Source: Prototheca cutis (Eukaryota; Chlorophyta; Trebouxiophyceae; Chlorellales; Chlorellaceae). Taken from it: a stretch of DNA of 64,000 nt. The stretch spans positions 373,170 through 437,169 of the forward strand of contig BCIH01000009.1 of the NCBI GenBank assembly GCA_002897115.2. Direction: 5' to 3'. How positions within the stretch are numbered: position 1 is the first letter of the stretch; each line of letters opens with the position of its first letter. Position numbers and translations under genes: made by a program. This document shows, one piece after another, positions 3,029 through 59,853 of this stretch. The notes under the pieces are model-generated. The model was not told the DNA's origin and searched no databases. It worked only from the letters and a program-made list of their open reading frames with translations.

Positions 3029-6000
3029 ATGCTCCGGCCAGCGTATCGCGGGGTTTGCCACTACCTATTTGCCAACGCTCTTGTCGACGACCGACCACCA
3101 CCTGATGCTGTTTCGGGTAAACAGGGGTTACTGACAGGAGGCAATCCCGGCGACCAGACGAGACCGCCGGTGGATGGCCAACAGGCCACGCTCCAGGAGC
3201 TCAGCTTCGCGGTGACCAAGGCTCTGCGAGATTTTGCGCTTTCCGGGCTGTCACCAGCGTCTGACGAGCCAGCTTTACCTGGTGACCCGCAATGCGTACC
3301 CCCGACGACGCTGTTCCAGCTCTTCATGCGGCTGCCCCAGGCCGCAGAGATCGGCCTCCCGGTCATGCAGGCCGCAGTCCGCGATCTTGCTGATGATTTC
3401 CGGCGAGTTCCCATGCAAGGGTTCGACTTGGCGCGACTGTTCCCAGGCCTTGGAATGCCCCAGTCCCCAGCCGGCTCGGACTCCCCTGCGGGGACAGATA
3501 TGCTGAGCCCGCTCGATGCAGAGACGGTGCAGATAATCCTGCAGGCCACACGTGCCATCGCTGCGGAGGCCACTGGCGGGACATGCAAGGAGGAACTCCG
3601 TCGTGTGGTGGCCAGCGAACCGTGGCTCAAGACGGTGTTTGGCACGGGCATTCAAGGCGTATTGAAGCGTGTCCTGGCATCCGGCAAGGTGCATCAAGAG
3701 CCGCTGCACTTGCAGCTGCCCAACAGCGAGACGCAGGGGGGGGACCGACTCGTGCCGGCTTCTGCAGCGGGCGAGGACGGCGCGGCTACGGGTCCATGCT
3801 CGGGCGAGGATGGTGCCGGCACGTGTCTCCGTTCTGCCCAGGAAGAGACGCAGCGCGCGCAGCGCTGGGTTGACGGGCTGGAGGAACTGCTAGCCCCACT
3901 GCAGGGCATCGACGGCCACCGGGCGTTTTGCGAAGCGCACAGCCAAGAGACCGACAGTGCGCCGGCCCAGGCACGGACCGGCCCACCGACCGGCACCAGA
4001 CGGCGGCAACGCAGGCGGGAGCTTGCGTCCGAGGTGAAATCAAGGGGGGACGCTGAGGAGGATGGCGCCCGACCATCTTCAATACTGCCATCGCAGGCTC
4101 CTTCAGGTGCTGCTTCCCTAGAGGCGTCGGTGGAGAGTGAACAGGCTGACCATCCCCAAAGGGCTCGAAAGGCCCACCTGAGTGCAGCTGGTAGGAAGCT
4201 TCAGGAGGACGTGATGACACTGCTGATCCAGCTGCTCTCACTTCCGCGCACAGCCTCTCAAGTTGTGCTTGCGTCCATCTGCAGTGCTGCACGGCCCTGT
4301 TGCAATGCCAGGAAGCAGCAGGAACACTTTGGTGCCGCCATAGACGTGGCGTTGCAGATGGGGGCGCTGCGGCTCGCCACACTGCCGGTCCCGCACGCTG
4401 TGTTCACGGGTGCACCCCGGTATGAGCTTGGCGACCCCATTGTCATCGCAACCGTGAGCCGGCCGTCGGAGCAGCTTTTGTTTGAAGTCCGTGATGTCAC
4501 AACTGCTCTGCATGCGGGGTTGCAGCGTGCCATGCGAGCACTGATGGACGGGGAGGCTCCCATTCAGCCTGTTTCGGGGGCTCCCTGTGCGTGGCCACAG
4601 GTGCCACTGCTGCCAGACCCGGCCGGCGCCTTGCCCGCCATGCCTGCCGGGGCAACCACGCACAAGCGCAGGAGGAGCCAGCTGGAACTGTCACCGTACG
4701 AGGATTCCGGCGATATGGTGCTGGCTCCCAGCGGCCACGGGCAGAGCTTCTCGGTTCCTTGCGCTCAAAGCGATCCTGGCACGTTGCCTCGCAAGCAGCC
4801 CAGGCTTGAGCCGGCCAGTTCTACAGTTGTCGAGCCGCTGCCAAGCCACGGATCTTGGATGCAAGCCTTGCCGGAATGGCCTGCGGAACCCGCCGCAGCA
4901 GCGACAAGCTTCACGCCGCTGCATGGTGAGATGCTGGCATTTGCAGAGGCGTGCGAGCCCAGCGATGTGGACGTGGCGACATTAATGGGTGTGCTGGGGA
5001 CGGTGCAGGGAGTGGCCCACGAAACGGACAGGTCTCTCAGTGCTGTCATGGCTGGCAGTCAGGCGGTTGGTCTGGCTCTTCCCGGGGCCAACCTGGACAT
5101 TGTCATCTGTACCGCCCCGCAGCCCAAAAATAGTACCAGAGCATACGCGGTACGAAATGGGGGGATTTTGCCGCACTCTGTGATAATTCCTGTGCTCTGC
5201 AATAATGCCCTGTTCGGTAATAATGCCGTCTCATTTGGGGAATGCTGAAGAGTGCTGCGGGTCAGCAATGGCGTGCGTCTGCCAAGCCGTGCCTCCGCGT
5301 GCTTGCTGCACCGAGAATGCGACGGCTGTCCAGGCACCACTCACCCAGGCTCCTCCCCCCAAACATGAGCGTTCACCACAGCGCATCGGCGCGCAAACCC
5401 AAGTGGAGAAGCTGCTGCAGCTGCTGAATAAGAAGGATTGCATCATCGGAGCTCCGGAGATCATCCGCGCAAGGCTGCCCATCGTGCGCTGCACGATGGC
5501 GGCCCGGCGGCCCGGCGGCCTGGCCGTGGACATCTCGGTCGTGCCAGCCACCGGCATCTCTGCTGCTGGCTATATCCGGGCCCAGATCCGCCAGTTCCCG
5601 GAAGCAAGGCCACTCTACCTGGTGCTCAAGAAAGCATTCAGAATTGCTGGCCTGGACAAGGCTGACATTGGAGGCCTGGGATCGTATTCGCTCTTCATCA
5701 TGGTACGTGGGTGTGGGTGGGGGATGGGGTAATTCCTGCACATGCATAGATGAATAGACCCCCAACGCGAACTAGTCCTTGAATTGCTACCACAGATCCT
5801 AGGGTTCCTGGTGAGGGAGGGGCGGGAGCTGGTCAAGCTCCAGGATCCACGGTCCCGGTTTGCCGAAGATTGCAAGTTTAATGCGTTTCAGTACCTTGCA
5901 AACCGAACCTGGCGGCAGGCCATCCCGGCTGAAGATTTGGGGAAGCTTCTCTGGCAGCTGTGCACATTTTACGGCTCCGAGTTCAACCCTGTGGAACACG

Positions 6001-9000
6001 TGGTGGATGTGCGCCGTGGTGGCATCGTCGAGGAGCCACAGGAGCCCACGGGCCCCGGTGCAGGGCCTGGCAAGATCTGGCGGGGGGACCTGCGCGTCAT
6101 GGATCCAGAGTCTCGCGGGCAGATTTTGAGCAGGGGCGCGTACCGGGCAAAAGGTGTGTGGGAGGGGGTTTCCAGGTGGGCATTTGTGCTGGCTGTCATC
6201 CCGCTGACCTGTTGGCAAGTGCATCCCGATGCGTGTGTCAAGCAAGCATCTTCTAGGCACCCAACCACTCCGCACACCGAAATATGCACAATTGCACATG
6301 TAGATGTGCTGGTGTGCTTCCAGGAGCTCTCCGACCTGATTGGGAAGGTGCTGGGGGCCCGGACATCCAGTGGCGGCCACGCTGGCGACCAGGCCCGGCT
6401 CGACATCCTGCCGGGCATGTGGGACCTCGCCCAGGCCCTGGGAGAGCGTCTGGCGGAGGGGCCCCCAAAGAAAAATGCGCTCCAACCTGCCAGCATGGCA
6501 GCGCCAGAGCAGAGCCTGCTGCAGCCTGCGGATGACCGTGCCCGCAAGGCCCTTCCCGGGGTAGAGGACGGCATGGCACCCAGGCCTACCAGGCAGCCTG
6601 AAGCCAGGGGCCAGGACGATGCGATCCTTGGTAGGGTGGACAAGCCGCCGCATGTCACTGACCGCCCTGATGTCCAGCCACACGCGGCGGACATCAGAGC
6701 TCGTCTGGCAGAGGCGATCAGGGAGACGGATGCGCAAGCAGGCTCGATGCAACCCAATCCTGACGGCCAGCCAGCGGCCAATGGCGCCGGAGATAGCCAG
6801 AGGGACCCGCCGGAGGCTGGCCCACAGCCGATGCTCCAGGAGCTCAACCGCGCAGTGACCAAGGCCCTGAGGAAATACATGGATTTGACGCTGTCAGAGA
6901 AGCCCTTGGCGCCTTGTTGTTCGCGGGGCGACCTGCGGCCCATCATGCCCCGCGCAACACTGTTCCAGCTTCTCATGGGGCTGCCCCAGGCCGCGCAGGT
7001 GGGCCTGTCGAGCATGCACACCGCGGTCGGCAACCTTGGCCATCTTTTACGGCACTCTCCCACAAAAGGGTTGAACATGGCGGCGCTGATCGCGGGCCTG
7101 GGGGCACCCGGCTGGCGGCTCGACACGTCAGGACGGGGGCCCAGGTATCTTGTGGCCGTTGCTGACGCGGCGACAGTGCAGGCAATACTGCAGGCCATGC
7201 GCACGATTGCTGCTCGCGCCAGTGGCGGGACTTGCCAGGAGGAGCTTACGCATCTGGTAGCCAGCGAGCCGCGGCTACAGACGCTGTTTGCTCCCGGCGT
7301 TCAGGACGCGTTGAACCGGGTTCTGGCGGCCGGTGTGGTGCGCCAGGAGCTGCTGCGCTTGCCGCTGCCAGATGGCGGCGTGCATGAGGTGGCCCAGCTT
7401 GTGCCAGCTGGTGCAGTAAGCGAGGGTGCGGAGACTGCGACATCCTCTTCAGCCCAACCAGGGGCACAACTGGGTCAGCACTGGGCATTCCGGTTGGAGG
7501 AACTGTTGGCCCCGCTGCAGGGCGTCAATGGTTGCAGGACGTCTTGTGGGAGAACGATCGCAGAGGATGGCAGTGTGTCGACCGATGCCGGATGGCGCCA
7601 GCAAGCAGCCGGGCGCGATTCCGGTGTGGAACCGATGGTCGAGGACGATGCTGTATGGGCCCTCAAACCAGCTTCGACAGCACCAGTCCAGGATCCCACT
7701 GCCAGCGCAAGCCCAAGCATGCCAGCAAACCAGCCGCAAGACGACGAGGCCAAGCATCAGCAGAATGCTCAGCTTGACGAAGCCGACAGGAAATTGCAGG
7801 AGGAAGTGCTGACGCTGCTAATTCAGCTGCTCTCGCTGCCCAAAACGGCCTCTCGAGTTGTGCTTGCCTCTGTCTGCAGTGATGCACACCTGGTGATCAA
7901 CCCCGCAGAACATTCGGAGCGTTTCGTTGCTGCCGTGGACGGGGCGCTGCAGGCGGGCGCGCTGCGGATCGCCACGCCGCTGGGCCCGCACGATGTGACC
8001 AAGCATCTCGTCCGGTACAAGCTCAACGACTCCGCGGTCATTGCGAATGCAAGTCGATCATCAGCGCAGCCCGATATTGATTGCCACGATGTCATTGCTG
8101 CGCTGCGCATGGCGTGGAGCTCTGTCATCAGCGAGCTGCCCACAGCGATCGCCACTGTTTGGCCTGCACCAGAGGAACCTGGCGGTCCAGCGGCTCCCTG
8201 GGCGTGGCCGCTCGCGCTGCCAGCCTCTGGTCTGCCCAGGAAGCCCGATGCGGTCAAGCCCGCCCTGGTCAAACCCGGCGCGGTAGGGCCGGCGCCGGCC
8301 GGCCCGCGGCCGAAACGCCGGAAGTATGGTCCCGCGATGGCTGGTCCTGTGCGAGTGTTCGTGGAAACGATGCTGGCCACGCACCACGGACTGTGGCCTC
8401 TGCCCTCTGGCCGACAGCCCACGCCCTACCCGACGCTGCTCCAGCTCCTCGTGCGGATGCCGGAGGCCGCAGATCTTGGCCTGGCAGCCTTGGAAGCCGC
8501 GGTCAGTGAGCTCAAACGATACTACGGACGCAATACCACAAAGGGATTGTTTCCGATGCCGCTCTTCTGGGGCCTGCAAACATCCATGGGCAGACTCAGC
8601 ATGGCTGTGGCCAAAGGCAGCGAGCCCCCAAGCTCAGCCAACGCACGGAGGGTGCAGGTGCTCCTGGATGCCATGCGCGCCATCGCGGCGCATGCCACCG
8701 GCGGGACGTGCCAGGACGAACTGGCCCAACTGGTGGCCAAAGAGCCACGGCTCCAGACAGTGCTTGGCAAGGACGTGGGCGCTGTGCTGCAGCGGCTCCT
8801 GGACGACGGCGCAGTGCGATGGGATGCTCTGCGTGTGCCGGTGCCAGGCGCTACTAAGCTGGTGATGGCCTTGCTCGTGCCGGGCGCCGCAGCACGCGAG
8901 GACGACGAGAGCGTGGCACCCCAGTCCCCCCAGAGCATGGCAAGACAGGCGCAGTGCTGGATAGACAAGTTGGAAGATTTGCTGACACCACTTGATCGCA

Positions 9001-11852
9001 TCAGCGGGCACGACGCGTTTCTGCGGGAGCACAACCTGGAGACTGGTAGTGTTCCAGTTGAACAAGGGCCTGGCCCGTTGACTTCATCGACGGGCCTGGG
9101 CCAGCGGCGACCCATTGCGGAGGCTGCACCTGCACGGGAATCGGCGGTTGATGCCAAGGAGGAGGACTCCCCGAAACCCGCAACACCGCCTGTGTGGGCT
9201 CTGAGGGGCACCGCTGACCCACAGCCACCTGCGGGCAACGAGCTGGCAGGCCAGCCCAAGGGATGCCAGCTGAATGGAGCCGGCAGGAAGCTACAGGAAG
9301 ACGTACTAGCCCTGCTGGTGCAGCTCCTCTCGCTCCCGCGCACAGCCTCTTGGATCGAGCTCAACTTTGCCTGCCGCCGCGGGGCCTCCGCCGGCGACAA
9401 CAGCATCCTGGGTGGCCCATTCCGCGCTGCCCTGGACTTGGCACTGCAGGTGGACGCGCTGCGGATGGCGCGGCCGCCGGTCCCGCACGCAGTCTTTGCG
9501 CTTGTGGATCGGTACGAGCTTGGCCCGCCCCTCGTGGTTGCCAACGTGAGCAGGCCGCTGGAGCAGCTCGAGTTTCGGGGCCGCGGTCCCATGGACGCGC
9601 TGAGTAGTGTGTGGCAGAATGTCATAGACAAGGTAAAGGAGGAAAAGGCTGGGGCCTCGGAGCAGGACATGTCAGTCATCCATCCGGGGCCCTACCCGTC
9701 TCGTGTCGTGCCCACCGGGCCTGTCGGCACAGCCACACGCAAGCATGACGGGAGCCAGCTTCCACTGCCGGTGTTTGAAGATGCCCGGGGCGTGCAACTT
9801 GCTCCCTGCGGCGACCAGCGGAGCCTGCCGCTTGCAGACTGCCAGTACAAGTACGACCCCCACGTGGATTTCTTCAAGCGACCGCGGTTTGAGCCGCCCA
9901 GTTCCATGGCTGGCTTGCCGCTCCCCCGCCCCGCACTGGCCACCCCTCCCTTGTTTTCGGCTACCTGGGCCCCCGATGCTCCGGAGAACCTCACGCCGCT
10001 GCACGACGAGATGCTGGCATATGCAGAGGCCCTGGAACCCAGCGACGCACACCTAGCAATGCTGCGGGTTGCGGTCGCGTTCGTGGAGGAAGCCGCGGCC
10101 TCAGTGTGGGGAAAGGCTCAAATCATCGTAATTGGGAGCCAGGTGCGTGCAGACTGTGGGAAGTGGGGCGTTGGGGGGCCGGCTGGGTCAGGTCGGTAGC
10201 AGTGACGGTTGTGGGAGGACCCGGGAAGCTGCTGCGCTTCTGGTGCGGGCGATGCCCAGCGCCATGCACGACTTGGATGGAAAGCAGCGTGGCATGAAGA
10301 GATTGGGCACACTGCCACGTCCCAAGCCGCCCCACTCCCACAGGCAACCGGCCTGGCCATGGACGGAGCAGACCTAGACATCGTCATCATTGATGCTGTT
10401 TCACATACCAAGGTCGGTGACAACACCAGCCGAATGAACATGTGCAGGCGGGAACCGGTTTTGGTTTGCTATGCTCGGGGGATGCCATCCCCTGGTGGGA
10501 GCCTGCCAGTTGGGCCCGGATGATGGGTGCTGCAGATAGGAAATGACTCTGGACAGAAATTTGAGGGCCCGCATTTGGATGGTACTGACCAGGGGCCCCC
10601 GTCGTGTCCCGTTGTTCCCTCTCCCCCAGTACGATACCGTCCATGCCAGGCTTCAGCTACTGTTAGAGCTGTTGCAGCGGCGGGGCTGTGTCATGGGTGC
10701 TGGGGCTGTGTGTCCCACGCCCATTCCCACCCTGCGCTGCACACTGGCGGCCCCACGCCGCGGCGGCCAGGTTGTCAACATTTTTCAAATGCCAGTCGAT
10801 GGCACGTGCTCCACCGCCTGGATCCGGGCCGAGCTTCATGATCTCCCGGAAGCACGCCCGCTCTACCTCGTCCTCAAGAAAGCATTCAGAATTGCTGGCC
10901 TGAACAACATCGACAGCGGCGGCCTGGGATCCTTCACGATCCTAGTCTTGGTGGGCGTGGGTGGGTGTTGGGCTGAGCTGTCTCGTTGGCATATGGTCCT
11001 AAGGAAACAACCCCCTCCTTCCCTCCCTCCCAACCAACACACGCGCGCGCGCGCGAGAGCAATTCCCCCACCCACGAACTCCGCTCACTCACGCCTGAAA
11101 CCGGCCTCACAGGTGCTGGGGTTCTTGAGGGTGTCGGGCCGCCGTGATGACAGGCTCCCAGGAGGCACTCACTACTTTTCAAGCGAAGCCAGCTTTGATG
11201 TGTTTGGCTACCTGAAGCGTCGGACCTGGAGGCAGGCCGCGGCAAACGCGGACCTCGGAATACTTCTCTGGCAGCTCTGTGTGTTTTACGGCTTTGCGTT
11301 TGACCGGTCAAAGCATGTGGTGGATGCGTTCCAGGGTGGCATCATCTACGAACCGCAGGAGCTCCTGCCTGCCGGTTCGTCTGGGGAATGCCCACTGGGG
11401 GACCTGCGCATCATGGATCCAGACGAACCAGACAGGAACATGATCGGGGACACATGCCGCACGCAAGGTGTGGGTGGGTGGGTGGGTGGGCGGGTGCATG
11501 TGTGGGTAGAGGGGGCGGGGGGGCTGGATGAGGGTTGGCGTGCCGTGTTGGCCTGCTGGCAATTGCATCTTGAGGCATGCAAACGCGCATTTTCAAGGCA
11601 ACCAACCATTCATCACCCAACAATCCTGCAATGGCGGCTGCAGATGTGTTTGTGTGCTTCCGCGAGTTGGCCAAACTGATTGGCGAAAAACTGCAGGACT
11701 GGCCTTCCACGGGCGGCCACACGGGCGACCCGGTCCGACCCAAGATCCTGTCGGGCATCTGGGACCTTTCCAAGGCCCTGGGGGGCCGCTTGACGGAGCA
11801 GAATGTCTTGGAACGTGCCATGGAAGTGGATGCAGACACCAACACCACATGA
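3029..11852 (+). CDS. Fused double TRF4/5-like nucleotidyltransferase gene (copies B and C), about 2,530 aa
   Basis: The proposed exons are 3029-5149, 5382-5702, 5796-6153, 6304-10142, 10344-10412, 10630-10950, 11113-11467 and 11644-11852. All phases agree and give 2,530 codons. The order is N-terminal module, nucleotidyltransferase B, PAP-associated domain B, two more N-terminal modules, nucleotidyltransferase C, PAP-associated domain C. Where copies A and C stop, B reads on through the 3.8-kb exon 6304-10142, fusing two units. Copy B has Asn (5090-5092) for the first metal Asp but keeps Asp 5529-5531. Copy C keeps Asp-Leu-Asp (10371-10379) but has Asn (10777-10779) for the third. The PAP-associated signatures are intact. 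The ATG at 3029 is the first in-frame one after an upstream GTG; an upstream exon is possible. A pseudoenzyme or scaffold role is inference. Two separate transcripts cannot be excluded. Confidence 0.68.
3183..4560 (+). repeat. N-terminal repeat module, unit 1
   Basis: This coding module of about 450 residues lies upstream of nucleotidyltransferase B. It holds, in order, an LQEL..AVTKAL helix, a TLFQLFMRLPQAAE.GL segment, a TGGTCKEELRRVVASEP segment, a WVDGLEELLAPLQGI segment and a LLIQLLSLPRTAS segment followed by a PHAVF..RYELG strand region. Related units recur at about 6838-8140 and 8340-9620. The helix-rich segments ending in short strands resemble winged helices, but I cannot assign them to a family. 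Confidence 0.75.
6838..8140 (+). repeat. N-terminal repeat module, unit 2
   Basis: This second copy lies between PAP-associated domain B and unit 3 inside the long exon. It keeps the same order of motifs: LQELNRAVTKAL, TLFQLLMGLPQAAQVGL, SGGTCQEELTHLVASEP, RLEELLAPLQGV and LLIQLLSLPKTAS. The linkers between motifs are acidic or Pro/Ala-rich and diverge in length. Confidence 0.75.
8340..9620 (+). repeat. N-terminal repeat module, unit 3
   Basis: This third copy follows unit 2 after a Pro/Ala/Gly-rich linker. Its opening is divergent (an FVETMLATHHG segment replaces LQEL), followed by TLLQLLVRMPEAADLGL, TGGTCQDELAQLVAKEP, KLEDLLTPLDRI, LLVQLLSLPRTAS and PHAVF..RYELG. A linker with KRPRFEPPSS then leads into nucleotidyltransferase C. 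Confidence 0.75.
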
Positions 11853-31863: not shown

Positions 31864-34800
31864 ATGCTGCACTCCAAGACTTTCCTGAAAAAGACCAAGC
31901 GGGGTCAGATTATGAAGGTGGGATAGCACGGCTGGGAGCATGCCTGGCGGCAAGCTGAGGGAATGGGCTGCGCTCTTGACAATACCGGCTGGTCCTTCAG
32001 GCAGACAGGCTGCAGTCCGTGTGCACGCTGCTGCTGGCTTGGTGCGGTTACATGCACATGATGTCTCACTGGGCACGAAGAGCCTGCCACATACCCTGGT
32101 GCGCCTGCCTTCACCCTGGTTTGCCGCCTTCCCCACTGCGCAGGTGGTGAGGGAACACTACCTGCGAGAGGACATCTATTCTGGCAGCCCATTGGACCCG
32201 GAGTGTGACCCCTCGGCCTACACGCTGAGCCCTGATGCCGACCGCTACATTGTCATCGACACCAACGTGGCACTACACCAGGTGTGCTGGTTCTGTGCAG
32301 GTCGTGGGTTGGATTAGTCGGGCGGGATGGGCAGCTGAACGGGTGGCTGTGGCAGTGCAAGATGGCTGGTGCTGCCCCCGACCAACAAAGGGCTCCTTAC
32401 CAAGCAATGGCAGGGAGTTTGAGGACATGCACGGTATTATTACTGGTAACATTCCTCACAATTAGAACACTCTGGATGTACTCCCACAGATGGATTTGCT
32501 GGAGCATGCTGCCGTGACGGATGTCGTCGTGCCAGCGGTTGTGCTGGAGGAAGTCCGGGCTCGGAATCAATCCGTGTTTCAGCGGCTCAAGGCACTGACT
32601 ACAAACGGTGCAAAGCGGTTTTACGTCTTTGCCAACGAAAACCACAAGTACGTGGCTTGCCTGTTTTGGGGGGGGGGTTTTGCCGCAGGATGTGTTTCTC
32701 TCGGGGAGGCAAAACACATGGTTCCTCCCGGGTGCCTTTGCGCGCCCTGGTGGGGGGGATCACCTGATGACCCCAGCCTGTCTCCCTATCATCCATCCAC
32801 ACGCTGCAGGGACACGTACGTCAAGCAGGAGGCCGGGGAGTCACCCAATGACCGCAACGACCGTGCCATTCGCCGGACAGCCGAGTGGTACGCGCAGCGG
32901 CTTCCTGACAAGCCCATCCTGCTCCTGACAGACGATGCCGCCAACAGGGTCAAAGCCACGGAGGCCGGCCTCACAGCTAAAAGCTGCATCGTGAGTGGAC
33001 CTTGAGGAAGGTGTTTGCGGGTCTGTTGGCATCGGTGGATTGGCAGGTCTGCTGACTTTGCATGCGCATTCAATAACGGCGGGTAGTAGGTGAACTCCTC
33101 CCCCTGCCCAATGCCCCGATGTTGTCGCCGGAGCTGCTCTGCATGCTCGTAACTCGAGAGTGATTGGAAGCGTGCAGCAAACTTCCCTGAACAAACACGC
33201 TGACAACTGGGTGACACAACCGTCAACCCAGGAGTATGCTCGGATGCGGGAGGACGTCCCGGAGCTGGCGGATGTTGTGAGCGCAGGATTGGCCACCGCG
33301 GCAGAGGAGAGCACAGGTGCGCAGGGTTTGGGGTGCTGGCCGGAGGGGTTGGATGCAGAGCAGCGTGTGTGGCGTGGCATGGCGGCCATGGCGGGATGGG
33401 ATGCGGAGTGCGGTGGCAGGTCTAAAGGCGGCAGGAAGCTTGATGATGCCGTGACCTGACCAGGCGCCTCTCGAGAAGGGGCACACCGTGCGATGCTGGT
33501 GCTTGTGCAGCGTTGCCTAAACTTACCCTCTACCGAGCCTCCGACTCCCCCAACCAAACCTGCACAGCCCTGCGTGCTGCGGGGGGCCAGAAGAAGCGGC
33601 GGGTCTACGAGGACCACCGCCCGCTGTCCGAGGTGATGGCCGGGGTCAAATCCGGGCGCTACCACCAGGGCGCGATACGCGTGTCGCGGTTCAACCCCTG
33701 GGAGGGCTACGTCGGCTGCGAGGGCGTCGACGGGGACATCCTGCTCAGCGGCCGAACCGCACTCAACCGTGCCTTTGACGGCGACGTCGTCGCTGGTGAG
33801 TAGGGGTTGGTTAGTCAGCTGAGTGGTCTGTTGTGGGATCTTGTTTTTGGTTACAAGGGTTGCGCTCGCATTGGAGGGAGTGTGCCACGCAGGAACGAAT
33901 GCGTGACGTGTGCAGGGTTTCAGTGCGGGCTTCCAAGGGAGAGAGTGTCGTTCATTCAGGCAGGGACATTCTGAAGAGCATTGCAAGTTGTGGGCCCCAC
34001 CTCGGCCAACAAAGCCTGCGCGTCACCGATACCAGCCCCCATTCTTCTGCAGTGGAGCTTCTGCCCGAGGAGCAGTGGCGCGGGGCATCGGCCCGTCTGC
34101 CGACCGCGGCGGAGCTGGACCAGGCCGCAAGCGAGGAGGAAAGCGCGGAATCCGGCGCCGATGGGGTGCGTGTGGTTGCAGTGGAGACGGCCGACGAGGT
34201 GCCTGATCGGGAGCTGGAGGGCGGGACCAAGCTCCCCACGGGCCGCGTGGTCGGCATCATCAAGCGCAACTGGCGCAGCCGGGGGTACGCCGCCGCCCTG
34301 CTCCCACCAAAGGACGGCCGGGCTGCTGTTGCAAGCGGCGCGACGGTGTCAATACTCGTCTGCCCCGTCGAGCGGAGGTACCCTTTCATCCGCATCCATA
34401 CCCGCCAGGCGGCGACGCTGGCCGACAAGCGCATCGTCGTGGCGCTGGATGGCTGGGAAGCGGACTCACTGTACCCGACTGGGCACTATGTCCGCACGTT
34501 GGGCACCATCGGCGACCGCGAGACCGAGACAGAGGTGTTGCTGCTCGAGAACGACATCAACACCGACCCTTTCACGCCCGCGGTCCACGCCTGTGTGCCG
34601 CATTTGCCCTGGAGCGTGACTGACTCAGACCGCGCCGACGCTTCCCGTGTCGATCTTCGCCACCTGCCCGTCTGCTCCGTCGATCCGCCGGGGTGCAAGG
34701 ACATTGACGACGCGCTCCACGTTCGCAAGTTGGAAAATGGAAACTTGGAATTGGGCGTCCACATCGCCGACGTCACCCATTTCCTCAAGCCCGACACCGC

Positions 34801-36748
34801 TATGGACGAGGAGGCCATGCGCAGGTGCGCGTGGGGGGGGGGGGGGGGGGCATGTTGGCAGCGTTTGTTCTGGACATGTATCCTTGTGCGGAGTGTCAAG
34901 GAAGGGAGAGCACCCCCACCCCAGCAACACCACCGCCATGCTGATGACTCCCTCCCTTCCTCCCAAGCTGACGCAAAGTTTACCCCAAACCCAAATGCTA
35001 CTGTACGCAGGGCGACGACGGTGTACCTTGTCCAGCGCCGGATTGACATGCTGCCCAAGCCGCTGACCGAGGACATTTGCTCGCTGCGGGCGGATGTGGA
35101 GCGTCTGGCCTTTTCCGTGCTGTGGGAGGTCACTTCCGACGCCCAGGTTTGGCTGTCGTTGGGCCGATTGATTGCTCTGGTGTGGATGGCACGTATGATG
35201 GCTCCAGGCGGCGGCAGCGGTCCTTTCAAGGCTGTCGCCTGGCCATGAGATGCATGCACGCCCTTTTCATACATGTGTTCAGAGTTCCCACATAATACCT
35301 CCAATTGCCTCTCATCCCCTCCCCTCCCAACAACCGCCACAACAGATTGTGTCGACCCAGTTCACAAAGAGTATCATCCGGAGTCGGGCGGCGCTGACGT
35401 ACGCCGAGGCGCAGACGCGGATGGAGGACCCTCGCATGACGGACGAGATCACGAGCTCCCTGCGTGAGATGAACCGCCTTGCCAAACTGCTTCGGCAGCA
35501 GCGGACGGACCGCGGCGCGCTGAGCCTGGCGTCGCCCGAGGTCAAATTTGAAATTGATACCGAGACGCACGACCCGCTGGACGTGGGCATGTACCAAGTC
35601 CGGGAGGCCAACCAGATGGTGGAGGAGATGATGCTGCTGGCAAACTGCTCCGTTGCCGCTGCCACACTGGCCTCGTTCCCGGCCTGCGCCCTGCTGCGAC
35701 ACCACGCCACGCCGCCTCCCCGCCAGTTCCAACCCCTGCTCAAGGCCGCTGCCGCCACAGGGTTCTCCATCGATGTCTCCTCCAACAAGGTGCATTTGGC
35801 TTTGTCGCCTCGTGTTGGCCGAGGCAGGAAGTTTTTTGATTGACCAAATATGATTGGGTTGTGATGTGCATGGTTGATTGGGTGGTCCAGGTGATGTGCA
35901 TGGTTGATTGGGTGGTCCAGGTGATGTGCGGAACCTGCTGCTGCTGTGCCGCCGCGCCTGTTCGTTGCTATCCCCTCGGCAACTGGGATGATGACGCTGG
36001 GGTTTGTAGAAATCAACCACCATTACCATCGCCATGACTAAACCCAAACAAAAACAATGTATAGGCCCTGGCCGCGAGCTTGGACAAGGCGGTGCGCCCA
36101 TCGGATCCGTACTTTTCCAAACTCATCCGGATCATGGCAACGCGGTGCATGACCACGGCACTGTATTTCTCCTCGGGCGAGGCGTCAGAGCCTGAGTACT
36201 ATCACTACGGCCTGGCCGCGCCTATCTACACCCACTTCACCTCCCCCATCCGGCGCTACGCCGACGTGGTGGTGCACCGTGTGCTCATGGCCACGCTGGG
36301 CCTGGCGCCCCTGCCGGCGTCGATGCGCGACCGGGCCCGGACGGCAGCCACGGTGGACAACCTCAACCTCCGCCACCGCAACGCGCAGATGGCGGGGCGG
36401 GCGAGCGTCGAGCTCCACACCCTCATCTTCTTTAGAGGGAAGACGGTGCTCGCCGACGCCCGCGTGGTCAAAGTCCGTGCAAACGGTATGCTGGTCTTTG
36501 TGCCGAAATACGGCATTGAGGGCCCCGTGCACTGGGGCGACGTCGATGACGGCAAGAACCCCGCCAACAATCTGGTCTACGACGAGGAGAAGCAGCAAGT
36601 GGCGGCGGCAGACGGCTCGCTGGCCTTTACCATTTTTGACCCGTGCGCCGTCGCCATCTCTGTGGAAGAAGGGTTTGCCAACCGCCGCACGCTGCGGCTG
36701 CGTCTTGTGGACCGGAGCAGTCTGCCCGAGGCCGACCGCATGGGCTGA
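31864..36748 (+). CDS. DIS3: Exosome exo/endoribonuclease DIS3 (RRP44)
   Basis: Ten exons: 31864-31917, 32144-32281, 32490-32647, 32810-32990, 33232-33316, 33568-33795, 34053-34824, 35011-35146, 35346-35789 and 36065-36748, all in phase, giving 959 aa. DIS3 is the 3'-5' RNase II subunit of the exosome. The PIN endonuclease domain (residues about 50-185) keeps its acidic residues in YIVIDTN, VLEEVR and TDDAANR. Cold-shock domains follow (HQGAIRVSRFNPWEGYVG; GRVVGIIKRNWRSRGY). The RNB catalytic motif DPPGCKDIDDALH is intact near residue 490, and an S1 domain closes the protein (GMLVFVPKYGIEG). Both nuclease centres look active. The intron 34825-35010 begins near an 18-G run, and intron 35790-36064 holds a 30-bp tandem repeat. 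Confidence 0.95.
34833..34850 (+). repeat. Poly-G run in a DIS3 intron
   Basis: Eighteen consecutive G, eight bases after the intron's donor (34825). It is as long as the run at 2419-2436. Confidence 0.9.
35861..35929 (+). repeat. 30-bp tandem repeat in a DIS3 intron
   Basis: Two exact 30-bp units (35861-35890 and 35891-35920) plus 9 bp of a third. Each unit ends in TCCAG and the next begins GTGATG, so every border looks like an acceptor joined to a donor. It lies inside the intron 35790-36064. Confidence 0.9.
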
Positions 36749-38363: not shown

Positions 38364-41300
38364 ATGGCATTTGATGCAGCAGGATACTCTGGAGGCTATG
38401 GCCTGCGGCAGAGGTTGAGTCCACAGTCTGCTGCAGCCCCTGGAGGGGATGCCACCCACCCGGCAGCTGAGGCCACAGTGGCCGTGGGCTGCCGGCCACG
38501 CACGCTGACGCGGGCCGAGCAGCTCCGCTTCTCGGCATTCAGCACGAGCTATTTGGAAGCAAGGTGGGTTTAGTTCTGGCGTTCCATGGTGTGGAGTGGA
38601 ACTAGGGGATTGTGCAGGGTGCACAACAGGCGCGCTCCACAGTCTCCATTCTAGAGTAACAGGAGACGTGTGCAGCGGCAACAGCAGCAGCGGCAGCGTC
38701 CCTCTGAATACAGAGCTCAAAGCCTTTTCATAAATACTCTCGGTCTCCAGGAACCACGTGCTGATGCGGTGGCACGAGCATGTCTGCAGAAAGCTCACCG
38801 AAGCCGACTGCGTAGGTGAGTATCGAGCTTGGAACCCTTGGGGACTCCTGGAGTAAACTCTCGATGTATGTGCTCCTGATTTGAGCAATGTTGTTGTGGA
38901 GCCCAATGGTGCTGTCCTGCTGTGGTCTACTGGCACCATTCTTGGGTGCTCACAGCCACAGGAGGAGACTGCCTTTCCTGACAACATCCCATTGCAGCAT
39001 CTGGGCTGGCGGCGGGACTCTCGGAGCAGCGTGTGCGGGATGCCTTTCGATTCCTGGACAGACAAGGCCTCATTAATTTCGGGCTGCTCGACCTGAAAAA
39101 GCAGGATGCCGGAAACGGCGGCGCGGCAAGCGGTACGGCCGAGGTCTCTGAAGATGCCATCGAAGGTGCTCTGTATGAGCTCCTGGAAGGCGCGGACATG
39201 CAGGTGAACCCTAGGGATTGTGTGTGGGAAATGCTGCTGCAGTCGACTATGGATGCCTGGATGGCATTTAGAATGGTGGTCGGGCGTTGAGTTCTGTTGA
39301 TAGGGCCTGCACAAATGGGCGACTCTGCAGGGGCTTGGAACGAGCCCACAGCGGTATCATAGCTTGATTGCCAAGCGCCGCTGCAATCCTGGCCCTCTGG
39401 ACTCTGCAGGAAGTCACGGAGAAGTCGCTGCGGCAGCAGGTAGGGGAGAAGCTCGGCGCCGACATGGCCCCCTACAAGAAGCTGGTCAAGTCCCTGGTGC
39501 GTAGCAGTGGTTGAGGTTCCACAATTTGCAGGGCTGCTGGAAAGCAGGCTGTGTTAGGGGGGCTGGGTTCCGGGACTGGCAACGGGGTGTTGGGGTCTGC
39601 GACTGCCTCCCAACAGGCCCAGACGCCGTCTGGTAGGTGGTATTTCCATCTCCGGCCCTGGCAACACCGACACTCTAAACCGATAGGTGATGGGTTTTCT
39701 GGAGCGTGGTGGTCCAGACCCGGCTTTCGTGGCCCGGCAGAACAAAGCGAAGAAACGGGCCGCCACGGCCGCAGCAGGGGCAGAGGCCGAGAAGAGAAAG
39801 GTCTTTGTCATCGGAGCCGGACCCGCTGGATTGACTGCCGCCCTGCACCTCCAGGTGACTCACTTGGACGGTTTGCTCCTTGTCATTGACGGCAGCACAT
39901 GTGTGCGTGCCCCATTCACTCGCTTCCTCCATACAGTGACGCAGCAACGAAGTAAGCATTCCTGTGCCCTCCTTCACAACGATCTACAGAACCAAGGCGT
40001 GGACGTGACGGTGTTGGAGGCACGGGAACGTGTGGGCGGCCGCGTGCACTCGTTTTCTGGTGGCGGTCTTGGGGTGCCAGTGGATCTGGGTGCCTCCATC
40101 GTCACGGGGATCGCGTCGGATGTGAGCAAGGGCCTGCGTCCCGACCCTTCGGCCGTGCTGTTCCGCCAGCTGGGTATCGAGTTGAACAAGCTGGGCAAGG
40201 ACCTGCCCCTGTTTGTGAGCCCCCAGCCCCTTGATGCCAAGCTTGACGCCCGGATAGAAGGGTGCGTACATGGTGGGGACTTGTGCTTTTGCGTATTATG
40301 TGGCCTGTCCGTCCCTTTTTTTGGGCAGAATGGCGGTCCAAGGTTGGGCCAATACAGCCCCCCATTCCAACCATGAACATGAAATCTGCAGGCTTCAGAA
40401 CCGGCTGATGGACGATGTGGCGGCGCGGCTGGAGGCCCTGCCCGAGAAGGAAAGCGAGGCACTGAGCTACGGTGCAGCCTTGGAGCGTGCGCTGCGGCGG
40501 CGGCAGCGCCGCGGCACGCTGTTCGAGGGCGAGGGTGAAGATGATGCTCGAAGCCGGCCATTGGGGGGAGTGGAACCTCGGGCAGAACCGGCCGCAAATG
40601 ACGGTACAGTGGAGATCGTGCTTGGCACCACAGAGAACACCAGTGTCGCGGCACAGGTCGAGGCATGTGTGGACGGCATCGTGGCGCAGGTCTGCGGCGC
40701 CGACGGCGGGGTCCCTGCCGAGCCCCTGCCAGCTGCCCTGCCACCGAGCCCCGATGCCGAGCCTCAGGCGGCCGAGCCTCACGCGGCCGAGCCTCACGCG
40801 GCCGATGGAGGCCTCACGGCAGAGGAGGAAGCCATCCTGCAGTGGCACTGGGCAAACCTGGAGTACGGCTGCAGCGCCTCCCTGCACGAGGTGAGTGGGT
40901 GGGGGCGGCGTTGGCTGTGGCGAGGGTGATGATGATGATGTGTAATGATGCAGTTTTGATCTAGGGACGCACCCATGCTGCTTTGGACGAGGAAACCTCT
41001 CCCCCAATAAATACAGTGAGCTCAAACCCCCCCACCCCGAGCCACCCGCCTACGCGTCGATCAGCCCCCTCCATCCAAAACAACTTCTGACACAGATCTC
41101 GGCGGTGCACTGGAACCAGGACGAGGAGTTTGGCGGGTTTGGGGGCCCGCACGCCATGGTCCCAGGTGGCTTTGACGCTGCATTTCGGGCCGTGGCCGCC
41201 GCGCTGCGCGACGTGCGACTGGGCTGCCGCGTGCGCATCGTGCGCAGCGTGGGCGACCGGCGCGTGGCGCTGGAGCTGGAAGGGTCGAGTGAAGTACTGG

Positions 41301-43334
41301 AAGGAGATGCAGTGATCATCACCGTGCCGTTGGGCGTGCTCAAAGCCGGCGGTCTCGCCTTCCGCCCGCCGCTGCCCGACTGGAAGGCTGGCGCGGTGGC
41401 ACGACTGGGGTTCGGGTGTCTGAACAAGATCGTCATGCGTTTCCCCTCCCTTTTCTGGGACCGCACGCTCGATTATTTCGGCGCGGTCCGGCCCGCGGGG
41501 GAGGCGACACGCGGAAACGCGTTTATGTTTTGGAACCTGGCGCGGCACACAGACGGTGCGCCGCTGTTGACGGCACTGGTCTCTGGCCGCGCGGCGCGGG
41601 ATCTCGAACGCGAGAAGAGCGACGACGGTGCTGTGAGGGCTGCGCTGGCCGCGCTGCGAGCGCTGTTCCCGGAAGGCACGGTGCCCGAGCCCGAGGCTGC
41701 AGTTGTAACGCGCTGGGCGTCTGATCCTGACGCGCGGGGGAGCTACAGCTACGTTGCGGTCGGCGCGACGGGTGCCGACTATGACGTGCTGGCGCTGCCC
41801 GTCCGTCGCCGACTGCTTTTTGCCGGCGAGCACACTGCCCGCGCGCACCCAGACACCGTCGGCGGTGCCATGCTCAGTGGTCTGCGCGAGGCTGTCCGCG
41901 CGCTGGCGCTGCTGCAGGGTGGCGACGAAGGGGAGGAAGAAGCTGCAAACATGGTTGGCGACGAACAACGTGCGGCCAAGCGGCTTAAACGGGGTGGTGT
42001 TGGCACAGCCGGTGACGTCGAGAAGGAAGGTCGTGAATGGGAGGACTATGGTTCGGACGGGGAGGAGCTTTTGTCTGAGGCACGGGCGCTTGCACGGAAC
42101 CGTGCGCTGGAGTCGGCACTGGGCGCGGACGTGGCAAAACGGATGGAGGAACAGCGTCGGCGCGAGTCGGCGCGCGACGCGCAAAGGGCGACTGCCCGGG
42201 CCCTGCTGCTTGCCGGCGCCGGCGACTGCATGCCCGTGCTGGAGATGATGCGGGACGCTGGTACCGCAGCGCAGCGTGCGAATCTTTCTTCGGGAATTGC
42301 GCAGGCCGACGACGGTGCGAAGAGAGCGTTGTCCACAAATGCTGCCTTCTTGGTCGAGCTGCGGGGGTGGTTGGACCAGGGCGCGGGCAACCCGTTGCAC
42401 AGCCCTGCACTGGAAGCCGTGCTTCGTGCGCTGCGAACGCTGCCCTGGGGAACGGTGTCTGCGGAGGTTTTACAATCCACTGGCCTGTTGGAGACCGTGC
42501 GGGGGCCCGCGCTGCGGCGGCACGCCGACCCGGACGTCGCGAAGGCTGTGGCGCGGGTGCTCGAAGCCTGGAGCCCTGTGCTGGAAAGCAGCAGCGGGGG
42601 TGCTGATGCCGATGCTGCTACCGAGGCGGAGTTGGAAAGGAAGAAAAAGGTCGTGGCCATTGCTGCTGCGGTGCGGCCGGTGGAACTGGACGCCGAGGCA
42701 AAAGCTGCTCTTGAGAAGGCCCAAGCCGAAGCTGCAGCTGCTGCCGAGGCAGCTGCAGCCGCAGCGGCGGCCGTGGCGGCGCGGGTATCGCAACTGACCG
42801 ATGCGACGACCGGGGGTGGCACTGATGCCATGATGCTCGAAAGCTTCGAGTCCTTCTCCCGGAAAGCCGGCGTGAGCGGCAGCCGACGGTCGAGGGCTGC
42901 CGAGGCGCCGGGACCCTCGGTGGCTGGAGACAGCGGAGAGGCCAAGCCGCGGCGGCGCGAGCCAGAGGACCTGCCCAGCCTCGTCGAGTCGCGTACGTTT
43001 GGGAGCACAGGTCGCGGTGATTCTGCTGATGGACTTGTGGGTCATGATGGGCATCGCCTGGGCAGTCTTTCCAACCAAACCTCCCCCTTGCACGCACTTG
43101 CCAACCAATGCCGCCACCAAGCCGCCCCAATAATTGCCTGCCTGTACTAATGCAGTGCTCAAGCCGATGTTCAAGTCGGGCCAGATCAGCAAGGAGCAGT
43201 ACAAGCTGGTGGCACGCAAGGCCGTGGCGCGGCTCAAGCACGAACACACCGGGGACGTGAAGCACTGGCTCGTGCCGAAGCGAAAGGCAAAGGTCCAGGA
43301 CCTCATCCACAAAATCATTTCGCAAAAGCTGTGA
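38364..43334 (+). CDS. LSD1-like histone lysine demethylase with SRI-type C-terminus
   Basis: Nine exons: 38364-38563, 38751-38815, 38998-39203, 39410-39496, 39687-39854, 39990-40261, 40392-40890, 41096-43010 and 43156-43334, in phase, giving 1,196 aa. LSD1-type flavoenzymes demethylate mono- and dimethyl-lysine on histone H3. A SWIRM domain (ARNHVLMRWHEHV ... AFRFLDRQGLINFGLL) is followed by the FAD motif VFVIGAGPAGLTAALHL and EARERVGGRV, the substrate lobe with LANLEYGC-like and HWNQDEEFGGFGG segments, and GCLNKIVMRF, whose Lys matches the catalytic LSD1 lysine. An acidic Ala/Pro insert of about 110 residues lies where animals carry the tower. The last exon encodes a separate module, VLKPMFKSGQISKEQYKLVA and following residues, like the CTD-binding SRI-type end of PHRF1 and SCAF proteins, as in plant LDL3. 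Confidence 0.9.
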
Positions 43335-55457: not shown

Positions 55458-58400
55458 TCAGACGAGGTCGTCGGGGCCCCGGGGCGTGCCGCGCTTGGAG
55501 ACCACGGAGCCGCTCTTCTCAGACTCGACGGTAGGACTGGAGCCGCTGGTGTTCGCGCCTGGTCGGCGGCCGTCCGTCGCTGCCGCGGCGGCACCCTCGA
55601 CGTCGTCAAAGTGACGCAGGCGCTGCTGGATCTGGGAGACGATGGCGTGGAGCTTTGGCGAAATGGCGCGCTTGACCGCGCCTGCCGTCCGACTCGTGGC
55701 CTGCACCGCCGAGTCGAAAGCGCCGTGCCCGCTCCAAGTGCGACCCGATGCCCCCGACTGTGTGGCGGTGGTGACGACGGGGTCGACGCGGCCACGGATG
55801 TCGTCCGTGGCCGCCGCGGCCGCCGCTTTCCCCGCCGCTGCCGCGGCCCAGTGGCCCGTGGCGACCGCCGGCGGTGGGCCTCCTCCCAGGCCGTTGCCGT
55901 TGTTGGTGGCATTGGAGAAGGCGCCGCCACGGTTGCTGGACAGACTGTTGTCGTTCGACCGCCCCGTGCCGTTGGGAAGCACGGCGCCGCGTGCAGCGGC
56001 GGCATAGAACGGCCCGTCGGCGAGGACGCCACGTGGCGAGGGCAGCATGGCATTCAGCGGCCCGCTGCTGTCGGCAGAGTCGGGCCCCGATGCCGACTCC
56101 GTGGCCGACCCCGTCCCCGAGCCGCCGCCGTCGGCGGCCAGGCGCCCGACGTCCTCGTAGCCGTCGAGCGGCGGCGCGGCCAGGAGCATGTTGTAGACCT
56201 GCCGCGCCGAGGGCCGGTCGCGCGGGTTGTGGGCCATGCACGCGTGGATGATGTCGACGACCTCCTGCGGGCACTCCTCGGGCACCGCGGGGGGGCGCAG
56301 CATGCCCCGCATCGGCATCTCCTGCGTCACGATCTCCCACAGCACCGTGCCCAGAGACCAAATGTCCACACGCTCGTTGCATGGCTGGCCCATGAGCAGC
56401 TCGGGCGCCGCCCAGGCAAACGTCCCCACGAAACCGTCGCTCTGCTGCTGCTCCTCCAGGATCCGCGCCAGGCCGACGTCCCCCAGCTGTGGCAGGGTGT
56501 TGGTGCGTGCGGGGGGGGGTTGGTTCATCGGCGGGGGTTGTTGCTGTCACCTTGGTTTCAATACACCCAGAGGAAACAAAGCAAACCTTGGCACGGCCGT
56601 CGCGAGTCAGGAGCACGTTGGAGGACTTGATGTCGCGGTGGGAGACGCGGGAGGTGTGGAGAAAATGCAGGCCTCGGGTGATGTCGAGCGCGACGGCCTT
56701 GCCACCCGCGCGCCACGCCAGGCGGCTCTTGAGATCGGCGGTCAGCGCCTTGCGCAGGTCGCCGCCCTCCATGTACTCAAACACGAGCATGAGCGACTTG
56801 GCGCCCACGACAGCGCCGTAAAACTGGACAACGTTGGGGTCCCGCGAGACAAACCGCATCATCGCAATCTCGCGCACGAATTGGTCCCGGGGCCCGCCGC
56901 CGTCGCAGCGCACCGTCTTGACCGCGACGACCTGGATGCCGTCTTTCACGGCCTTGTACACCTTGCCGTAGCTGCCCTCGCCCAGGTGCCACAGCTCGCC
57001 GTCCTCGGGCCGCCGCACAATCTCGATCCGGGACTCGTCAATCTCCCAGTCGTCGCCCTCGCCCGAGAGCGACGCGCCACGGGCCAAAGGCTCCGCATCG
57101 CGCCGCTTCCGCCGCCGCTTTGCCAGCACGACAAACACGGCCAGAGCCGCGAGCACGGCCGCGGCGGCGACGCCGACGGCCAAGCCCGCGGCCGCGCCTG
57201 CGCTGAGCGAGCTCGACCCGGTCGTCGACGGCGTGCCGGCGGACGTAGTGTTTGTGGAATTCGCCACCATGTCGCTGAATGCCATGAGATTCACCGATTC
57301 CGGGCCCACCTGCAGCAGCTCGTCCGCCGTCGCGAGGCCCTGCAGCGCCGCCCGGACCTCCAGCCCCGTCGCCGTGGGGTGCGCGCTCAAGTACTGCGCC
57401 GCGATCCCCGTCACCAACCATGCCGCTCCAAACGCCCTGTGCGGCGTTGTCATGGGGGCAGGCGGTCCATTCTTCCTAGGGTTTGCCCTGTCCAGGCGTT
57501 TTGGTAGTTTGTTTCAGTGGCCACCACCCCCTCCCCCAAAAAGCTAAATAAAACCAGCACCCGAGCGGCAACCACACCTGGTAATGACGGAGTTGTAGCC
57601 GCCGCCGGCCATGGCGCCCAGGACGCCGACGCCCAGCCCACCTCCGGGGCCGTAGACGTCGATGCAGGACGAGTTGCTCGCGCCAAAGATGGTCAGGCGG
57701 TCGAAATCGTCGACGCCCGAAACGGAGATGGTGGCCGGGTGCGCGGCAAGGACGTTGTCGCACACCGGCGCGTCCCCAAACCCGGCCGGCACGATGACCG
57801 TTATGTTGGCGGCGGCCGCCTGGTCCAGCCGGCTGTTCAGGGCCTGCTCGATCCAGTCGTCGTCGTCGGACGAGAAACGGTCGCGCGACCACCACGTGTC
57901 GATGATCATGACCGCGGGGGCCTCGGCCGTGGACAGCACCGCGTCGATGGCAGAGGGCAGGCCCCCCGGGGCCCAGATGTTCGGCGACTCCAGCATGCAC
58001 GACGACCGGAACCGCACGCTGGTCATGCTCGCGTTGCGCGCCACGCCCAGCGTGTTGCCACCAATCATCGACGCCGCAAACGTTCCGAAACCGTACCAGG
58101 CAAACGCGTCGGGGCAGTCTTGCAGGGGGTCGGTCCCATTGTAACCCCACCCAGCCTTGATCCGCGTGCCTGACCTTCCGTCGGGCCACGCAAACTCGGG
58201 GTGGGTCGCGTCCACACCGCTGGACAGGATGTACACGTTCACCCCGTCGCCACCGGCCGTCGCCGTGTACAGCCCGTCCAGGGGCAGGTCCCGCTGGTCC
58301 AGCCGGTCCAGGTGCCAGGGCACTGTCGCGTTGGCCACCATCAGTGGCACCGTTGTCGACTCGGCCTGCAGAGCCGTGGAGGAACTCACGCCGTCGACTG

Positions 58401-59853
58401 ACGCGTTCGACACGCCGCCGCCTACCTCTGCAGCCGGCGACGATAACGTTGATGTTGATGCTGAGGCGGGGGGAGGGCTTGGATTCAGCGCTGGCGAGGA
58501 CTCCGCTCCAGAGTCCGACTCCGATCCGGAAGTGTCGTTGCCAGCTGGTCTGGGCCAGGTGGTCATGCCGTTGTACCCCGAGGTGCCGACGGGCCGCGCG
58601 GTAGGCGTAGGCCGCAGGCGCAGGCCTGCCAGGGCCAGCGAGGTGATGTTTTCATCCGCGAGATGCCCCACCAGCTCGGGCGAGGCAAACAGCTCGAGCA
58701 GCTCCACCCGCAGCGTGCCCAGCGCGCAGGCCTCCCACGTCGAAGCATTCTCCCCCGCGCACGCCGGCAGTGAAATGTCCAGGACCATGAGCTGCGCCCC
58801 GGCCTCTGCCGCGGCCGCCGCGTCAAAGTAACTCAGCGCGTTGTCGCTGTGCCACGCCATCACGTCCACATGCGCGCCTGTGAGCGCGCCGAGCTCACCC
58901 GCGACGGTCGAGGCCTGCGTCGCGGTCAGTGCACTGCCATCCGTTGTCCCTACATCCACCAGCACTTCCACAGGGATCACGGGGTAGAGGTCGACGGTAT
59001 GTGTCAGGACCATTTCATTGATGTTGATGCTCATCAGCTTGACTGTCGCGTTGAGGCCCAGCGACTGTGCCTTGGCGCCCCACATCAAAAACACAGTGAA
59101 TTCGTCCGTCCACGCCTGCGTCCACGTGTCGCTGACGTTCAGGTTAGGCATGCTGCGGTTAAACAGGTGGTACAGGTTGCCCGCGAAGTCGACGTATGGC
59201 TCTGTCGTGTCCCACGGGTCAGAGTAGCCAGGCTTGGGGTAACTCTCGCGGTAGCTCACAATCTGCACCGGACCTGCATGCACGGGGGCCACAGGGATAC
59301 CAATGCACATGAGAAAGGGCAGGTTCCGCGAGATCCACCCAGCTCCCATACCCAAGGCCCGGCCCTCTGGATCCGGCAGGCCCTGGCGACCGTCACGGGG
59401 AAAACTCAGCTCGAGACCAGGCCCCCCCTGCTCTGGGAGCCTCTACGCGCCCGCTTGTCCCACCTAGTGCCGGGATGACGACCTCCTCGAATGCCTGAGT
59501 CAGGATTTCCTGGGTCTCCAGCGTGAAGGGCACGATGCTGGGGCCCGAAAATCGGACGACGAGGGCCTCGTGCAGCGCCAGCACCCCCCCGGTCTCCCTG
59601 CAGGGGCCAGCGGGGACATGGTCAGCCAGTGTCTGCACTGTGGGGCATAACACGACACAACGCCGGCGGACATGCTCCCTCCGGGCGCCACCTACTTGAT
59701 TAACTGCGCCCAACGCTGCTGAGCGGCAATGGGTTCCGCGCTCCACGACGCGTTCGTCGGCTGGTTGCGGAAGCCATTGTCGTCATATTGCGCAGTAATC
59801 GACCCAATGCACAGGGTGAGCACAAGCAATGCAGAGCCGATGGGCCCCCGCAT
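55458..59853 (-). CDS. Receptor-like kinase with an inactive proteinase K-like subtilase ectodomain
   Basis: Five exons: 59696-59853, 59464-59597, 57578-59273, 56587-57436 and 55458-56486, in phase, giving 1,288 aa. The order is signal peptide (SALLVLTLCIGSITA), an unknown extracellular region with an RFSGPSIVPF segment (to about residue 400), an S8 subtilase-like domain (about 430-735), one membrane helix (about 737-760) with a KRRRKRR stop, and a TKL-type kinase (about 790-1060) with a Ser/Gly/Ala-rich tail. The kinase has GEGSYGKVYKA, VAVKTV, HRDIKSSN and FAWAAPE; DFG reads DVG. The subtilase fold is evident, but the expected Asp, His, Asn and Ser are Ser, Phe, Phe and Phe. It is probably a surface receptor in which the protease fold serves for binding; that is inference. 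Confidence 0.85.

Follow-up and report, generated by a model that had tools for sequence, protein, structure and literature searches.

What would a subtilase do once every one of its catalytic residues is gone and it stands outside the membrane, joined to a kinase? A predicted gene of the apparently colourless green alga Prototheca cutis raises this question. It lies on the minus strand of a 64,000-nucleotide stretch of contig BCIH01000009.1 (assembly GCA_002897115.2, positions 373,170 to 437,169 of the forward strand), hereafter the window, and encodes, in order, a signal peptide, an N-terminal ectodomain, a linker, a subtilase domain, a stem, a membrane helix, a kinase, and a tail. We consider it probable, at roughly 60%, that the product belongs to a conserved group of trebouxiophyte single-pass receptor kinases in which a dead proteinase K-type domain senses a ligand in or near its cleft and switches a Raf/CTR1-like kinase.

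Taken alone, the subtilase domain matched Pfam Peptidase_S8 (E = 8.7e-6, 25.7 bits against a cut-off of 21.8) and, at E ≤ 1, 81 different sequences in the PDB, of which the top five were proteinase K-like (3.1e-23 to 1.3e-20). Judged by these matches, the subtilase likeness of the isolated domain is not due to chance. The domain of the window protein has diverged, since Pfam S8 was unlisted at E ≤ 1 for the full-length protein and a whole-genome S8 search at E ≤ 0.001 did not list the receptor locus; S8 was listed at E ≤ 0.1 in all nine full-length relatives scanned. Structure was modelled for the closest relative, P0001 from Auxenochlorella. The first model, from a 9-row alignment, was dropped (predicted local distance difference test [pLDDT] 48.5) and one from 39 rows was used (pLDDT 77.0), with a fold partly guided by active enzymes because 26 rows were non-family sequences, 23 of them with all four catalytic residues. 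Sites equivalent to the catalytic Asp, His, Asn, and Ser lie in this model at a strand end, at a helix start, just past a strand, and at a helix start, respectively; the catalytic residues of the subtilase fold occupy the same places. Matches in a fold search with the model were dominated by subtilases and kinases. Four Cys are invariant in the subtilase domain of the family, and we take them to correspond to the two disulfides of aqualysin-type enzymes. On its sequence and predicted fold we assign the domain to S8, proteinase K type. This agrees with the initial annotation, whose motifs VYILSSGVDATHPEF, GFGTFAASMIGG, VIVPAGF, FGAAWLVTGIAAQYL, and VNLMAF are all present on the minus strand within 57233–58300 and whose proteinase K-like fold is borne out by the Pfam and PDB matches and consistent with the P0001 model; its placement of the motifs holds, and the limits are corrected to about 58326–57268 for the domain and 59853–55458 for the gene.

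By sequence, the catalytic apparatus is missing entirely. Alignment placed Ser, Phe, Phe, and Phe at the Asp, His, Asn, and Ser positions of the window protein, as first proposed, and all four positions were replaced in 14/14 family members, so no alignment restored the triad. By this reading the domain lacks what makes an S8 enzyme, the Asp-His-Ser triad and the oxyanion Asn. All four residues were kept in 36 of the 39 comparison rows of the same alignment, a count of sequences that includes near-copies and not of independent events. Of the three exceptions, P0135 has Thr for Ser, P0153 has Asp for Asn, and P0012 has lost three of the four. P0012, a transcriptome protein of 622 residues, is itself a eukaryotic pseudo-subtilase with no listed kinase, and has Ser, Leu, Asn (kept), and Asn at the four sites. 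The division recurred when the subtilase domain from one of the Myrmecia receptors was used as query: all 11 kinase-bearing matches lacked the four residues, and 29 of the 31 kinase-less matches had all four.

An intact relative occurs in the same genome and provides a control. This subtilase, at C2:1156874-1157725, has all four catalytic residues (Asp, His, Asn, and Ser) and is 35% identical to the receptor domain over the matched part. Its presence would suit a decoy or guard, in which the dead domain mimics the alga's own secreted subtilases, is bound by their inhibitors or propeptides, and lets the kinase report attack or protease balance. A decoy should retain the cleft of its target, however, and here the substrate-binding strand has changed from MSLG to IDTWW and aromatic residues alter the site; we regard this explanation as unlikely.

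Relatives with the same architecture were found in other algae. Searching with the window ectodomain returned 11 proteins, nine with a kinase, and the Myrmecia-domain search returned 42, of which four of the 11 with a kinase were new, giving a receptor family of at least 14 members including the window protein. The family surely exceeds 14, because the Myrmecia-domain search missed P0004 and P0008, members already found. The 13 relatives come from an Auxenochlorella hybrid (one), Myrmecia bisecta (three), Parachlorella kessleri (three), Nannochloris (one), and metagenomes (five); Myrmecia belongs to the Trebouxiales and Parachlorella to the Chlorellales, both within the Trebouxiophyceae. A profile search from eight full-length relatives found the family only as P0005 in the best 120 of 202 matches, a list dominated by unrelated kinases and proteases. 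That search was probably seeded by a Gln-rich start, and the members missing from it carry no meaning. In a 53-row tree all 14 members fell on one side of a branch with support of 100/100. The tree was midpoint-rooted and has long branches at P0012 and P0164; P0012 lies outside the receptor clade, its placement unsure. Because the members form a single branch side with this support, the simplest account is that catalysis was lost once, before the sampled family spread. The gene looks like an old, conserved sensor and not a broken gene, since its green-algal relatives share the same loss.

These relatives also bear on whether the architecture is a sequencing or gene-model error. The gene model is a prediction, and the intron at 57577–57437 splits the subtilase domain just upstream of the nucleophile helix. 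This intron is GT..AG with in-frame stops inside; joining the exons across it gives VITRAFGAAWLVTG, and the same stretch is uninterrupted in nine aligned relatives. All four introns are GT..AG, the reading frame is unbroken, and relatives align along the length. Thirteen relatives from other sources show the same succession of parts and the same residue changes, and the gene contains no N and only two exon homopolymers of ≥7 bases. An artefact is hardly credible.

Judged by sequence, the predicted protein is organised like a receptor kinase, with a signal peptide, an ectodomain, one membrane helix, and a kinase on the cytoplasmic side. A hydrophobic stretch separates subtilase domain and kinase in 14/14 members, and in each of them N-glycosylation sequons are denser before the helix (0.86–2.47 per 100 residues) than after it (0–0.58). 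Domain, helix, and kinase likewise share one predicted protein in 13/13 relatives, which upholds the original description of a receptor kinase with a pseudo-subtilase ectodomain. The order then given was right, but the domain does not lead directly into the helix; a Ser/Thr/Gly-rich stem of ~24 residues intervenes. The Ser/Pro/Thr-rich linker in front of the domain is far shorter in P0001. The kinase motifs are intact, as noted before for HRD and VAVK: all 14 members have the kinase Lys, the Glu of alpha-C, the HRD Asp, the Asn of the catalytic loop, the DxG Asp, and the APE Glu, and the DFG position reads DVG in 12/14, including the window protein, and DIG in 2/14. By sequence the best PDB match of the kinase was plant CTR1 (1.1e-31); by structure FES and CTR1 tied. 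In the three P. kessleri receptors (P0004, P0007, and P0008) the kinase is followed by another kinase-like domain, which has HFD in place of HRD.

The kinase chassis seems to be common to several ectodomains, because contig C6 of the same genome holds other kinases, ~50% identical, in which a hydrophobic helix precedes the kinase and nothing matches a subtilase. Two kinases at G000:C6:593039-596193 (L015 and L017) lie on opposite strands with ~1.5 kb between kinase matches, and their catalytic loops have HLD in place of HRD.

The N-terminal ectodomain had no Pfam match at E ≤ 1 over the ~290 residues upstream of the linker. In P0001 it models as two beta-alpha-beta-beta-alpha-beta units, with pLDDT mostly 85–96 and four blocks at 64–77 within residues 61–320, and two of its Cys (269 and 280) are invariant in 14/14. 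Profile comparison gave an I9 propeptide a probability of <1% in hhalign for both units, which were not fold-searched alone. Nor did profiles support the two units as copies of each other (unit against unit, E = 0.095).

The dead protease might also be evolutionary ballast or a spacer attached to a functional kinase. The catalytic loops do drift: the oxyanion Asn position holds Phe and Tyr (two members each), Val (four), Ala and Pro (two each), and Thr and Gly (one each). The domain as a whole is held. Identity to the window protein is 41–74% in the subtilase domain and 47–87% in the kinase, against 21–67% in the N-terminal part, where every relative except the two closest has only 21–26%. Also retained are the four Cys of the domain, Trp558, and, in 13/14, the Ser that stands at the Asp site. 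We consider a relic very improbable.

Conservation was compared in successive alignment windows between 12 family rows, from which P0132 and P0008 were dropped as near-duplicates, and 33 active-type rows, from which P0033, P0150, P0155, P0157, P0158, and the odd P0012 were dropped. The Ser segment was among the most relaxed in the family (11 of 291 windows as low), as was the oxyanion segment (11 of 292). At the other extreme, the MSLG/IDTWW strand was one of the most tightened segments (16 of 289 windows as high); at the opposite cleft edge 31 of 283 windows were as high. Stretches around GGLPSAID and CPDAFAWY are conserved in the family and not so in active enzymes. Within the alignment, constraint has left the Ser and oxyanion chemistry and moved onto neighbouring structure, a shift that we infer to be toward ligand binding.

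The surroundings of GGLPSAID and CPDAFAWY could instead be an interface through which the dead domain pairs with itself, a relative, or an active subtilase, so that contact is sensed and not a cleft ligand. Pseudo-subtilases do act in pairs, as CspC and CspA form a signal-transducing heterodimer (PMC12880746), and Myrmecia and Parachlorella each had three members among the ectodomain-search matches. The genome of the window yielded no second such receptor, and the three other matching places retain the catalytic Asp, so that pairing would have to involve two copies of this protein or an ordinary subtilase as partner. We hold pairing to be rather unlikely.

We favour the cleft-ligand receptor. 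The sequences support that a proteinase K-type subtilase domain lost its entire catalytic apparatus and was kept folded outside the membrane, with a Raf/CTR1-like kinase of intact motifs on the inner side of the membrane helix. The domain would serve as the sensing module of the receptor and no longer as an enzyme. Its ligand would most likely be a peptide or a segment of a protein, bound within or next to the former substrate cleft, which appears remade, its catalytic sites largely filled by aromatic residues and its substrate strand fixed as IDTWW. Binding would alter receptor association and so turn the kinase on. To our knowledge, ligands of green-algal receptors are hardly known.

Several observations weigh against this proposal. 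The cleft could be plugged by its aromatic residues, with binding left to some other surface. The Asp-site and His-site segments were unshifted in the conservation comparison (209 of 293 windows as high for the former, 222 of 291 for the latter), and the six cleft segments pooled were unremarkable, with 40 of 298 shifted placements as high (51 of 298 for the active enzymes). Family-specific insertions were scored as mismatches in the comparison set, inflating the top windows, and the cleft segments were placed by the general anatomy of proteinase K. As to topology, 5/14 gene models lack a strongly hydrophobic start (12-mer score <1.5). Among the kinases, that of the P0009 model is short by ~29 residues and the kinase loop of P0134 is without its third glycine. 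The P0007 model has an insertion in the kinase catalytic loop; this and the P0009 gap are perhaps gene-model errors.

Table 1 Coordinates, in window numbering, of the predicted receptor kinase gene and its parts. Fractions refer to the 14 family members.
Feature	Position	Strand	Remarks
Whole gene	55458..59853	-	five coding exons, stop TGA, 1288 residues; predicted
Coding exons	59853-59696, 59597-59464, 59273-57578, 57436-56587, 56486-55458	-	
Signal peptide, ~residues 1-21	59791..59853	-	hydrophobic N-terminus MRGPIGSALLVLTLCIGSITA, judged from sequence
N-terminal ectodomain, ~residues 60-318	58612..59578	-	interrupted by intron 59463-59274
Ser/Pro/Thr-rich linker, residues 319-410	58336..58611	-	sequence
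Pseudo-subtilase domain, residues 414-719	57268..58326	-	split by intron 57577-57437
Ser448, catalytic Asp position	58222..58224	-	alignment; S 13/14, T 1/14
Phe493, catalytic His position	58087..58089	-	alignment; F 10, Y 2, S 1, I 1 (n = 14)
IDTWW (555-559), replaces MSLG substrate-binding strand	57889..57903	-	Trp558 14/14
Phe596, oxyanion Asn position	57778..57780	-	alignment; Asn 0/14
Phe665, nucleophile Ser position	57430..57432	-	alignment; F 9, H/D/W/R/A 1 each (n = 14)
Membrane helix, ~residues 744-769, then basic stretch	57118..57195	-	hydrophobic 21-mer, 14/14 members
Kinase domain, residues 813-1047	56184..56988	-	Pfam Pkinase 1.7e-52; split by intron 56586-56487
Kinase motif residues	Lys836, HRD Asp931, DVG Asp949, APE Glu975	-	alignment
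Cytoplasmic tail, residues 1048-1288	55461..56183	-	poorly conserved, 14-47% identity to relatives

The genome comprises 19.9 Mb in 23 contigs, and the window has a guanine-plus-cytosine content of 62.6%. Light-harvesting proteins, PsbO, and the Rubisco small subunit had no match in the whole genome, and the alga is apparently non-photosynthetic. Since the receptor persists where photosynthesis has apparently been lost, its job would not be tied to photosynthesis. Elsewhere in the window, on the plus strand, are ordinary neighbours: an open frame at 5754-10196 that matches PAP_assoc (Cid1-type poly(A) polymerase), a Dis3-like RNB exonuclease (33815-35245), and a flavin amine oxidase (40949-43147). 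Prototheca includes opportunistic pathogens, and how they perceive their environment is a question of practical interest too.

The algal domain resembles proteinase K-type subtilases (aqualysin I, 1s2n, and 2b6n) in sequence and fold; the algal receptor differs in that the four catalytic residues are gone, no I9 propeptide is recognised by profile, and a helix and kinase are fused to the domain. PCSK9 retains its triad, cuts itself a single time and, unlike the algal receptor, is soluble. In Clostridioides difficile, CspC is a pseudo-subtilase in soluble form that has been linked to the sensing of germinants (PMC6636752), and a CspC-CspA heterodimer relays signals toward the active protease CspB (PMC12880746). 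Both resemble the algal domain in having a subtilase fold, no functional triad, and a part in relaying environmental signals, but they are soluble bacterial spore proteins that act via CspB with no kinase, whereas the algal domain is tied to a helix and kinase. Plasmodium PIMMS2 is a eukaryotic subtilisin-like pseudoenzyme with a signal peptide and membrane helix (PMC5520436); unlike in the algal receptor, no kinase is described for it there, and its triad residues are present in certain species but missing from others.

Top literature matches, from which subscription papers and preprints mostly fell outside scope, included no receptor kinase with a pseudo-subtilase ectodomain, and the main text of a 350-genome survey of receptor-like proteins in the plant lineage had no 'subtil-' or 'peptidase-' words (PMC10834447). 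As far as searched, receptor kinases and pseudo-subtilase sensors are each known and their union is apparently undescribed. The 14 receptors, with most simply one catalytic loss, form a natural series for the transition from enzyme to receptor. Plant receptor-like kinases (PMC10834447) share with the algal receptor an ectodomain, membrane helix, and kinase; by comparison, the nearest solved kinase to the algal one by sequence is CTR1. We propose tentatively, at a little short of even odds, that the pseudo-protease receptor kinases of trebouxiophyte algae are a distinct class in which the cleft of a secreted proteinase K became a ligand site wired to a Raf-like kinase. If so, these algae would sense peptides through a system that has no relation to the leucine-rich-repeat receptors known from land plants.
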